Source: a virus
Virus record (IMG/VR): IMGVR_UViG_3300006875_000205
Location: 1-21,355 of that record
DNA: 21,355 nucleotides
Strand: one strand, 5' to 3'
Shown piece by piece: positions 1 to 1,278 of the stretch. The notes under the pieces are model-generated. The model did not search any database. It worked only from the letters and a program-made list of their open reading frames with translations, and was not told the origin of the DNA. The stretch's first letter is position 1, and each line of letters starts with the position of its first letter. A program made the translations under genes and the position numbers.

Positions 1-111
1 TTTACCATTGCGAATACGGCTAATGACAGGTGTAGATACATCAAGTCTTGCGGCTAAATGCCTGTCGTTACGAATATCAAATTGTTTTTGAAGCGCATCT
101 AGCAGTTTCAT
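1..111 (-). CDS. XRE-like helix-turn-helix repressor (3' end off window)
   Basis: The 37 visible codons start at the ATG 111..109, preceded by an AAGGA ribosome site five bases upstream. The peptide begins MKLLDALQKQFDIRND and continues into LAARLDVSTPVISRIRNGK, a Cro/C1-type helix-turn-helix with an ALA-type turn and a serine-isoleucine-serine recognition helix start. Known members of this family are small phage or prophage repressors and regulators that bind operator DNA. The gene lies at the far end of the leftward operon, after a gene-free stretch, so it may have its own promoter. The C-terminus is outside the window, so its length and any dimerisation domain cannot be judged. The DNA-binding call is firm; the role as lysogeny repressor versus early-gene regulator is inference. 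Confidence 0.75.
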   Translation of the reverse strand, partial: MKLLDALQKQFDIRNDRHLAARLDVSTPVISRIRNGK

Positions 112-124
112 AAATATCCTTGGT

Positions 125-148
125 TATACAAATATATAAGCATGTATA
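125..148. promoter_or_regulatory. Inverted repeat upstream of the XRE-like gene (candidate operator)
   Basis: TATACA at 125-130 is matched by its reverse complement TGTATA at 143-148, separated by 12 AT-rich bases. It lies 14-37 bases before the start codon of the XRE-like gene, where an autoregulatory operator would be expected. A single TATACA half-site also occurs at 2089-2094 between the two divergent promoters. The repeat is short and the region is AT-rich, so chance is a real alternative. Confidence 0.35.
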
Positions 149-180
149 CGGCATTTATCTTATAAATTGTGCAGGGTCAC

Positions 181-390
181 TAGACTTGGAGCAGTCCGAA
201 GGAGGTTCTAGCCCCTGCTGCTAGGGTTACGCGCCACTCCTAGCTAGGCGTATTAGGTGGGTACTCGCTGCGTCCTTAGCCCCGGACGGTTTCCCTCCGG
301 TCATTACCCACAAGCGCATTCGGCATCCGCTTTCCCCATAAAGGGTGGACTTACTTACTGCGGTGATGAACCCGACGTTAATCAAAGAAG
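181..390 (-). ncRNA. Gene-free GC-rich region with several hairpins (possible structured RNA)
   Basis: Between the stop of the SSB-tail protein (409) and the XRE-like start (111) there is no convincing gene. By hand count bases 181-360 are about 57% GC, while 121-180 is about 32%. Several inverted repeats lie close together: GTGGGTA (257-263) with TACCCAC (305-311), CCGGA (282-286) with TCCGG (296-300) nested inside it, GTCC (272-275) with GGAC (284-287) as an alternative, a CTAGC/GCTAG pair around 208-224, and TACGCC pairing with GGCG-C-GTA (one bulge) around 229-253. High GC and nested stems in an AT-richer phage suggest a folded RNA. Flanking genes are on the minus strand, so that strand is assumed. 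I do not match it to a known RNA family. An origin or a packaging signal is an alternative. Confidence 0.33.
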
Positions 391-408
391 CAGCTTTCAG
401 TCCGTAGA

Positions 409-648
409 TCAGAACGGAATCGGATCGTTAGGATCTTCTTCCTGCTTTGCTTTAGGTTTGACTGCATCTTTAGGCTTTATAGACAAGCTAAAGAACTTTT
501 TACCGTCTTTGCTGGACTCTTTAACCCATGCTGAAAGCCAGTAATCAACTCCGTCGGCATTGATTGAGCCAGAATATTCTGGATGATTGTCTGCCGTTTT
601 GTTCAAATTTTTGGACAATATGCCCCTATTTGTATTATCAAAGCTCAT
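409..648 (-). CDS. Small protein with SSB-like acidic C-terminal tail
   Basis: A 79-residue protein, start ATG at 648 with an AAGG site, six bases after the ERF gene stop. It begins MSFDNTNRGILSKN and contains HPEYSGSINADGVDYWLSAWVKE followed by a hydrophobic strand KKFFSLSIKPK, a pattern seen in short conserved phage and plasmid proteins of unknown structure that look like a small beta-barrel. The last residues, EEDPNDPIPF, closely resemble the DDDIPF tip by which bacterial single-strand binding proteins recruit partners. Together with its position directly after a single-strand annealing protein this suggests a ssDNA-binding or recombination accessory role. That is inference: it is much shorter than an SSB OB-fold plus linker. 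Confidence 0.8.
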   Translation of the reverse strand: MSFDNTNRGILSKNLNKTADNHPEYSGSINADGVDYWLSAWVKESSKDGKKFFSLSIKPKDAVKPKAKQEEDPNDPIPF

Positions 649-654
649 ATTTTT

Positions 655-1278
655 CTACCTTGTGGTGAATTTTTTAATTGCTGCCCGTTGTTTACTATCC
701 AACAAACTCCACAGGGCGGTCTTGGAGTCTGCATCCAACTCACATTGCTCGATATACTGGACAGCACCTTCTACATCGTCCATTGATAGCAAGGAGATAA
801 CCTGTACTCCGATACTACGGATAGCCTCCTGGTCTTCGCTGGTCATTTCATCGAATACATCTTTGGTAATCGGCTTTGCTGACTTAGGCGTATCTTGGCC
901 TGTTGTAGCGTCTAGGGCATCATGCTCTACGATTTCAAGTGCTGTAACGTACAGATAGCGTCTGGAATAAGTTTCTACAGCACCTAGATTCTGGATAGGA
1001 TGACAGCCTTTCAGGTGAGCATCAGCCATCGGGCTAGTAAATGTAATGCTCCCACCATTATCAGTATCGACAATGCGTAAAGTAGCCAGCTCCTTATCAA
1101 AGCTGATGACTGAGCAGAGTCCAAGTTCATCGAATATCTGGTTAATGGTTTTAAGAAAATCTCCAAGCTCAAAATACTGGTATCCAGCGAATTTATTGTG
1201 TCCTGATTTTTTTAGTGGCGCTGCTTGTAATTTAATCCTAGCTTTTTGCAGCTTTGCGTAGACTTGATATTCAGACAT
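655..1278 (-). CDS. erf: ERF-family single-strand annealing recombinase
   Basis: A 207-residue protein in the ERF superfamily, which anneals complementary single strands during phage recombination and circularisation (prototype P22 Erf). Family signatures are visible: an N-terminal helix ending in PLKKSGHNKFAGYQYFELGD, corresponding to the usual 'K...YkY..L.D' block at about residues 22-40, and NLGAVETYSRRYLYVTALEI at about 98-117, matching the 'GSa.tYarRY.l....i' block. The acidic/helical tail after about residue 135 is not conserved in the family and probably mediates protein contacts. The start at 1278 has AAAGGA seven bases upstream, inside the end of the preceding 57-residue gene, so translation is probably coupled. 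It acts in the cytoplasm on replicating phage DNA. Confidence 0.92.
   Translation of the reverse strand: MSEYQVYAKLQKARIKLQAAPLKKSGHNKFAGYQYFELGDFLKTINQIFDELGLCSVISFDKELATLRIVDTDNGGSITFTSPMADAHLKGCHPIQNLGAVETYSRRYLYVTALEIVEHDALDATTGQDTPKSAKPITKDVFDEMTSEDQEAIRSIGVQVISLLSMDDVEGAVQYIEQCELDADSKTALWSLLDSKQRAAIKKFTTR

Follow-up and report, generated by a model that had tools for sequence, protein, structure and literature searches.

Structured RNA modules predicted by covariation behind phage genes for unrelated single-stranded-DNA-binding proteins

The window analyzed here, by which we mean the whole stretch of DNA, is the IMG/VR virus record IMGVR_UViG_3300006875_000205 with its 21,355 bases. At its left end the minus strand carries, in order, an erf-like gene (1278-655), an ssb gene (648-409) and, after a gap of some 300 bases, a truncated HTH gene (111-1). 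The ssb product has the C-terminus DPNDPIPF, and the stop codon occupies 411-409. A preliminary description had placed a GC-rich, gene-free stretch packed with hairpins between two minus-strand genes, and both are present, ssb at 409-648 and the HTH gene ending at 111. The gap is filled by a structured region on the minus strand (169-406) that comprises three modules: two copies of one hairpin family (406-344 and 340-256) and one copy of a pseudoknotted element, module C (255-169).

655-1278, minus strand: gene for an Erf-like ssDNA-annealing protein, upstream of ssb (PHROG 155, E 5e-25)
409-648, minus strand: ssb, encoding a small single-stranded-DNA-binding protein (PHROG 7364, E 9e-16; PHROG 18154, E 4e-11)
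344-406, minus strand: hairpin copy 1, UAC-GGACU-GAAAGC...GUAAGUA-AGUCC-ACC (R1 39.4 bits, E 2.1e-8; covariation)
256-340, minus strand: hairpin copy 2, UAU-GGG-GAAAGCGGAUGC...GACGCAGCGAGUA-CCC-ACC (R1 42.6 bits, E 3.2e-9)
169-255, minus strand: module C, a compact pseudoknot followed by a hairpin (R2 93.8 bits, E 6.4e-21; covariation)
112-168, minus strand: AT-rich linker from module C to the HTH gene (sequence comparison and composition)
1-111, minus strand: HTH (Cro-like) regulator gene, downstream of the modules and truncated by the window edge (PHROG 3642, 638 and 4441, E about 1e-5)

R1 and R2 are covariance models built from the hairpin alignment and the module C alignment, respectively, with the window included in neither. 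The linker is also found in many relatives (TTATAAGRTAAATGCCGTATACANGCTTATAWATTTGTATAA) and may serve the HTH gene as its operator or promoter.

The GC enrichment noticed earlier is borne out, at 57.2% over 181-360 against 31.7% over 121-180, and the stems named then can be drawn (GTGGGTA 257-263 with TACCCAC 305-311, around CCGGA/TCCGG at 282 and 296). The hairpin density, by contrast, does not exceed what composition gives: the folding energy of the gap is close to that of dinucleotide shuffles on both strands (MFE z = 0.78 on the plus strand, 0.00 on the minus strand), and the number of stems is therefore no evidence by itself. The evidence comes from comparison. Relatives were collected by scanning IMG/VR with the Erf and SSB proteins, which gave at least 80 and at least 50 loci, and aligning the DNA behind ssb brought out a recurrent array of modules with varying copy number.

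In these relatives the hairpin follows the consensus UAY-[stem]-GAAAGC ... GCGAGUA-[stem']-CACC and occurs in one to three copies per array, with stems that differ from copy to copy (GGAGA/UCUCC, GAGCC/GGCUC, GGCCU/AGGCC, GGGC/GCCC, GAUCU/AGAUC). Across 45 hairpins, the window excluded, 100% of the counted cells at eight pairs form standard pairs and 67 cells are double changes, compared with 21 in shuffles; when the partner is slid by one column, pairing falls to 27-40%. A pattern of the hairpin core that omits the outer-stem bases and a pattern of the module C pseudoknot each matched at least 120 IMG/VR stretches, counts that cover the matches listed and are not independent since the contigs, which are fragments, are mutually related; R1 confirms nearly all of the hairpin matches. 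Among those listed, pairing of the outer stem, which had been left out of the pattern, reaches 83% across five positions, compared with 50% (sd 2.4%) for shuffled partners. In 169 distinct hairpins, GC, CG, AU and UA pairs all occur as the outer and inner stems vary, and on the mRNA strand G-U pairs outnumber A-C mismatches by 19 to 5. Judged by this covariation, the hairpin is a conserved structured RNA and lies on the mRNA strand.

Between the stems, a core of GAAA/GAGUA and GGAUG/ACGCA is nearly invariant. The columns GAAAGC and GAGUA hardly change, and AGUA stands opposite GAA at the helix junction, the letters found in the sarcin-ricin loop. On the strength of its letters, we take the GAAA/GAGUA part to be a candidate bulged-G (sarcin-ricin, loop E) motif. 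As bulged-G motifs of the AGUA/GAA type are folds of RNA, they count against the idea that the modules act as single-stranded DNA in replication, as a primosome assembly site or origin hairpin of the kind once considered for the STAXI element. The modules do lie among replication and recombination genes, and SSB itself acts on ssDNA, but their orientation and spacing track the stop codons of the coding strand, and the surplus of G-U pairs relative to A-C tells which strand is used, albeit not which sugar; we consider a DNA structure highly improbable.

Copy 1 in the window begins 2 nt past the ssb stop codon and has an outer stem (403-399 with 351-347) followed by the conserved internal loop GAAA/AAGUA. 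Copy 2 encloses in its variable apical domain the CCGGA/TCCGG stem of the preliminary description. This inner 5-bp stem covaries, changing to CCGAA/TTCGG, while the 7-bp stem that had been drawn around it is not a conserved structure: the sole other sequence that shares the apical domain (L022) has TATAGGTA in place of TGTGGGTA, by which the 7-bp stem is gone and the outer stem GGG/CCC is kept. The latter is absent from the MFE fold of the window. Elsewhere, too, apical domains are exchanged or rebuilt over a constant core, and two of them look like tRNA T arms (L025:1345-1431, GCCGGTTCAACTCCGGC; L077:1343-1435, GTGGGTATCGAATCCCAC). Such swapping over a fixed core, together with the presence of several modules in tandem, would suit a separate small RNA, processed or independently transcribed, whose fast-changing apical domains bind host targets or serve as decoys. 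A trans-acting role of this kind nonetheless seems rather improbable to us, as the positions are bound to the ends of other genes and a simple scan of window positions 1-700, with other promoter types outside its scope, returned no promoter-like site.

Module C combines two pseudoknot helices, CGCC 250-247 with GGCG 235-232 and GCUAGG 244-239 with CCUAGC 225-220, and a hairpin of GCAGGG 218-213 and CCCUGC 176-171 with the internal loop G/UGA. Its consensus in relatives is CGCC(W)AGCCGG..GUGGCG.GUAACNCCGGCAGCAGGG..CCCUGC, and there is one pseudoknot per array in the window and in its relatives. In 46 copies, both H-type pseudoknot helices included, pairing is seen in 96.9% of cells, and double changes, present in 11 of 22 pairs, amount to 62 cells versus 12.7 in shuffles. 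At 37 loci matched by the pseudoknot pattern, the hairpin behind it, which lies outside the pattern, covaries as well; the whole model has 99 double-change cells against 31 in shuffles there, in an alignment fitted to the model, so that the slid controls (26-47% pairing) weigh more. On this comparative evidence module C, like the hairpin, is a structured RNA conserved by covariation on the mRNA strand.

Covariation in homologues, which the preliminary description had put forward as a check, is thus strong in both the hairpin and module C, and judged in this way the region 169-406 is a real structured RNA. The earlier limits of 181-390 enclosed part of it and were too short. No coding frame is conserved: hairpin lengths in relatives fall into all three modulo-3 classes, and the 52-aa ORF at 227-385 has no PHROG match. 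We therefore rejected a coding function, the lengths not being multiples of three. A further check, a search of Rfam, left the RNA unclassified. Rfam 15, which includes many families of this kind, offers no credible match to the window even at E <= 10; at gathering and permissive thresholds the window gives chance-level matches and relatives give tRNAs, and neither ARAGORN nor Rfam finds a tRNA or tmRNA in the window. Nor does the literature searched, outside which most subscription papers lie, describe these modules.

BLASTN found no match to this part of the window in 50,697 phage records, and R1 found nothing in phage records chosen by protein similarity (L258, L268-L274). One isolate, Cronobacter phage JK004 (L384, MZ188976.1), has a module C match behind a tRNA-like T arm; the match lies in a 0.9-kb gap without annotated genes (805-1744) that contains other stems as well, perhaps a longer structured RNA. 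A pattern scan of genome contigs returned 15 matches, close to our own estimate of about 15 expected by chance, of which at least six score well with R1. The hairpin is rare in genomes of one bacterial family (2 of 401), by which we excluded an element of host chromosomes. R2 had no match in the bacterial genomes searched, an empty result that is weak for want of a known positive.

The modules keep a consistent place relative to genes, with ORFs taken from a simple script. Among the matches listed, 96 of 116 viral hairpins have an upstream gene on the same strand, and 60 begin no more than 12 nt past its stop codon, most often at 3-6 nt. Likewise, 45 of some 65 listed copies of module C that have no intervening hairpin start within 20 nt of a stop codon, mostly at 5-9 nt. 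Such proximity to stop codons may also be expected in compact genomes of any element that avoids coding sequence.

Looking downstream instead, the next same-strand start codon follows within 10-30 nt in 34 of 118 cases among the matches listed, and the conserved internal loops look like aptamer cores, so the modules might be read as a leader of the next gene that controls, in the window, the HTH gene as a riboswitch, coupling device or protein-bound leader. Against this, the downstream genes are diverse (HTH, DNA polymerase-like, small Cys-rich proteins and others) whereas upstream families recur, and in the window, as in close relatives, the AT-rich linker lies between the modules and the start of the HTH gene. 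A further point against it is that the scan of window positions 1-700 found no terminator-like element (0 sites); the stem is followed by ACC and not by the immediate U tract that follows the GC stem of an intrinsic terminator. We regard control of the next gene as improbable. The start next to the stop codon, the shared strand, the lack of promoter-like and terminator-like sites in that scan and the same placement elsewhere point to the modules being part of the ssb mRNA. The preliminary description's conserved folded RNA of no known family accordingly stands, while the separate RNA gene it suggested is not borne out.

One copy of module C (L310:1165-1255) starts about 5 nt after the CCA of a tRNA-Gly gene, likewise the 3' end of a gene. 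This site recalls theta ribozymes of phage tRNAs (PMC10879173) and, with a small core of about 20 near-invariant internal-loop bases amid freely varying stems, would fit a self-cleaving ribozyme or nuclease-processing module that cuts cistron or tRNA 3' ends without other factors. Theta ribozymes are HDV-like and linked to phage tRNAs (PMC10879173), but they are marked by a nested double pseudoknot, a catalytic C and self-cleavage, as opposed to the single H-type pseudoknot plus hairpin of module C, which has no HDV-like match in Rfam. There is no Rfam match to theta, hammerhead or other ribozyme families either, and the hairpin has two nearly adjacent internal loops with no obvious docking partner. 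A cleaving module is in our view very unlikely.

Of 61 proteins encoded directly before the hairpin among the matches listed, 17 match SSB PHROGs from four groups: the small SSBs of PHROG 7364/18154 (12), the gp2.5/Enc34-like ssDNA-binding proteins of PHROG 112 (3), the classical SSBs of PHROG 44 (1) and the DUF669-type SSBs of PHROG 6015 (1). Families of unproven function recur as well (PHROG 27714 and 18187, seven each; 9528, four; 862, three). SSB-like acidic C-termini end 28 of the 61 upstream proteins and none of 61 control proteins from the same contigs (endolysins, structural proteins, nucleases and others), a draw that excluded the upstream proteins themselves and would be expected to hold a handful if unfiltered. 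Most of the uncharacterized upstream proteins have acidic tips such as DDDVPF, DIPF or DWDDE, which resemble the SSB interaction tip. Judged by C-termini, module C follows the same gene families as the hairpin (27714, small SSB and 9528). Some upstream genes do not encode SSBs (HNH endonucleases, a RecE-like exonuclease, small Cys-rich proteins and uncharacterized products), and the link to ssb is therefore a strong preference and not a rule. Gene-family comparison thus shows the modules recurring behind genes of unrelated ssDNA-binding-protein families.

An RNA structure in a phage SSB mRNA has a known counterpart in the leader pseudoknot of T4 gene 32. That element lies 5' of the gene; together with the A+U-rich stretch that follows, it binds gp32 and so governs the start of translation (PMC3014915). 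By analogy, free SSB might, once ssDNA is saturated, bind the modules in its own mRNA and repress translation or hasten decay, as an autogenous operator. The linkage to ssb and the H-type pseudoknot in module C fit this idea, as does the nucleation of T4 gp32 on its own-mRNA pseudoknot (PMC3014915). The T4 operator, however, is 5' of the start codon, whereas the window modules begin 2 nt after the ssb stop and elsewhere follow unrelated SSBs; they lie 3' of ssb and not across its start, some neighbor genes are not SSBs, and unrelated SSB families are unlikely to share the RNA-binding specificity to recognize the same RNA. We think an operator of this type unlikely.

As the modules are linked by their position and orientation to cistron 3' ends, we favor, tentatively and somewhat short of even confidence, a cis-acting RNA that sits at the 3' end of the ssb cistron and, through its conserved non-canonical core, would protect the ssb mRNA or process it. 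Its target would be the ssb portion of an early, polycistronic message. With the ribosome halted at the ssb stop codon, the modules would fold directly behind it, and a host or phage factor would recognize the conserved core; this reader would not be SSB, because the RNA is constant while the SSBs are unrelated. The modules would then label or shield the ssb segment at its 3' end, either resisting 3'-to-5' decay or guiding cleavage, with the result that expression of ssb, whose product is required in large amounts, stays high whatever happens to the next gene. Having several copies in tandem, or swapping a hairpin for a pseudoknot module, would be different ways to meet the same need. What we infer in this scheme is that the modules act on the gene before them, that a factor is involved and that decay is affected. 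Points against this mechanism are the upstream genes that do not encode SSBs, the proximity to stop codons that compact genomes would produce anyway, and the core: a plain stable hairpin would suffice for 3'-end protection, and the strict core sequence exceeds that need.

A parallel for the proposed 3' element can be seen in T4 gene 32 mRNA, the most stable T4 message, where a site for RNase E is found near the stop codon (PMC3014915). More broadly, since one RNA stands behind unrelated ssDNA-binding families, it would serve the job and not the protein. Unrelated replication systems might, as a more speculative possibility that we rate below the mechanism itself, share exchangeable RNA modules as 3' "handles" on ssb mRNAs, with a host factor reading the core and setting the amount of SSB. 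If so, this would be a general new form of gene control at 3' ends, linked to function and not to protein family. Nearly all known cases of bacterial control by structured RNA involve 5' leaders; to find a conserved element at the 3' end of an essential replication gene would be unusual, and phage control of SSB level becomes a directly testable question.

Precedents for 3' placement exist. The sib element of phage lambda is a structured RNA 3' of a gene and is known to control that upstream gene (retroregulation); the 3' structure here is alike, with no match in sequence or model. The L17 downstream element (RF01708) is a structured RNA 3' of a gene it is proposed to control, an arrangement called highly unusual in bacteria (Weinberg et al., PMC2864571), and again shares the placement but no sequence or model match. 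Nearest by association are the STAXI RNAs (RF01728), structured RNAs of Enterobacteriales with pseudoknots, often in tandem, near genes for ssDNA-binding proteins (Weinberg et al., 2010, PMC2864571). Our modules share the pseudoknots and the ssb neighbors and, like STAXI, lie near ssDNA-binding or DNA-handling genes. STAXI consists mainly of repeated pseudoknots (two or three in tandem), whereas here one pseudoknot accompanies loop-E-type hairpins behind phage ssb stops, and the STAXI covariance model has no match at E <= 10 in window positions 1-700, nor any in relatives. The ornate RNAs GOLLD and ROOL (PMC12286853) are likewise structured RNAs without assigned function, largely from environmental or phage-related sequence; in contrast, the modules described here are 60-100 nt long, modular, tied to ssb and without an Rfam match.

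The association with ssb also predicts that the proteins of PHROG 27714, 862, 9528 and 18187 bind ssDNA, and members of 27714, 862, 9528 and 18187-like families probably do. Examples with SSB-like acidic C-termini, or encoded before a DNA polymerase, are L177, L198 and L207 (27714), L132 and L190 (862), L202 and L223 (9528) and L130 and L180 (18187-like). The predicted model of PHROG 27714 is weak (mean pLDDT 54), and with this query a fold search gave, among rows given a second look, several ssDNA-binding OB-fold proteins at Z 2.4-3.0 and a phiC31 integrase-RDF fusion at Z 6.2, all below the meaningful level. The A3 family had no match in a fold search. At five loci (L016, L091, L149, L176, L275), HNH or homing-type endonuclease genes separate ssb from the RNA modules. 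Beside the modules, different phages repeatedly encode a small Cys-rich protein (MKYLIALWLAATATMSYAACTYN..CVYCTTCCYGGNCNTTCN) that has a signal peptide and no Pfam match (L083, L085, L147, L176, L215, L221, L282, L323, L357).

Some relatives carry extra modules that are absent from the window. In many of them the other modules are followed by a third one, CCAAGACGCATGA-[stem]...[stem']-TCAGYCGTGTTGG, with about 25 distinct copies, for example:

L002:6726-6851, third module
L004:1616-1695, third module
L016:2169-2252, third module

Its inner stem is either CC/GG or GG/CC, two compensated states, and exchange of apical domains is seen here too. At L222:8045-8110, L237:2817-2901 and L144:3737-3802, the hairpin core sits within TGTTGG...CCAACA, flanks that also mark the boundary of the third module, giving the impression that modules had been joined end to end there.
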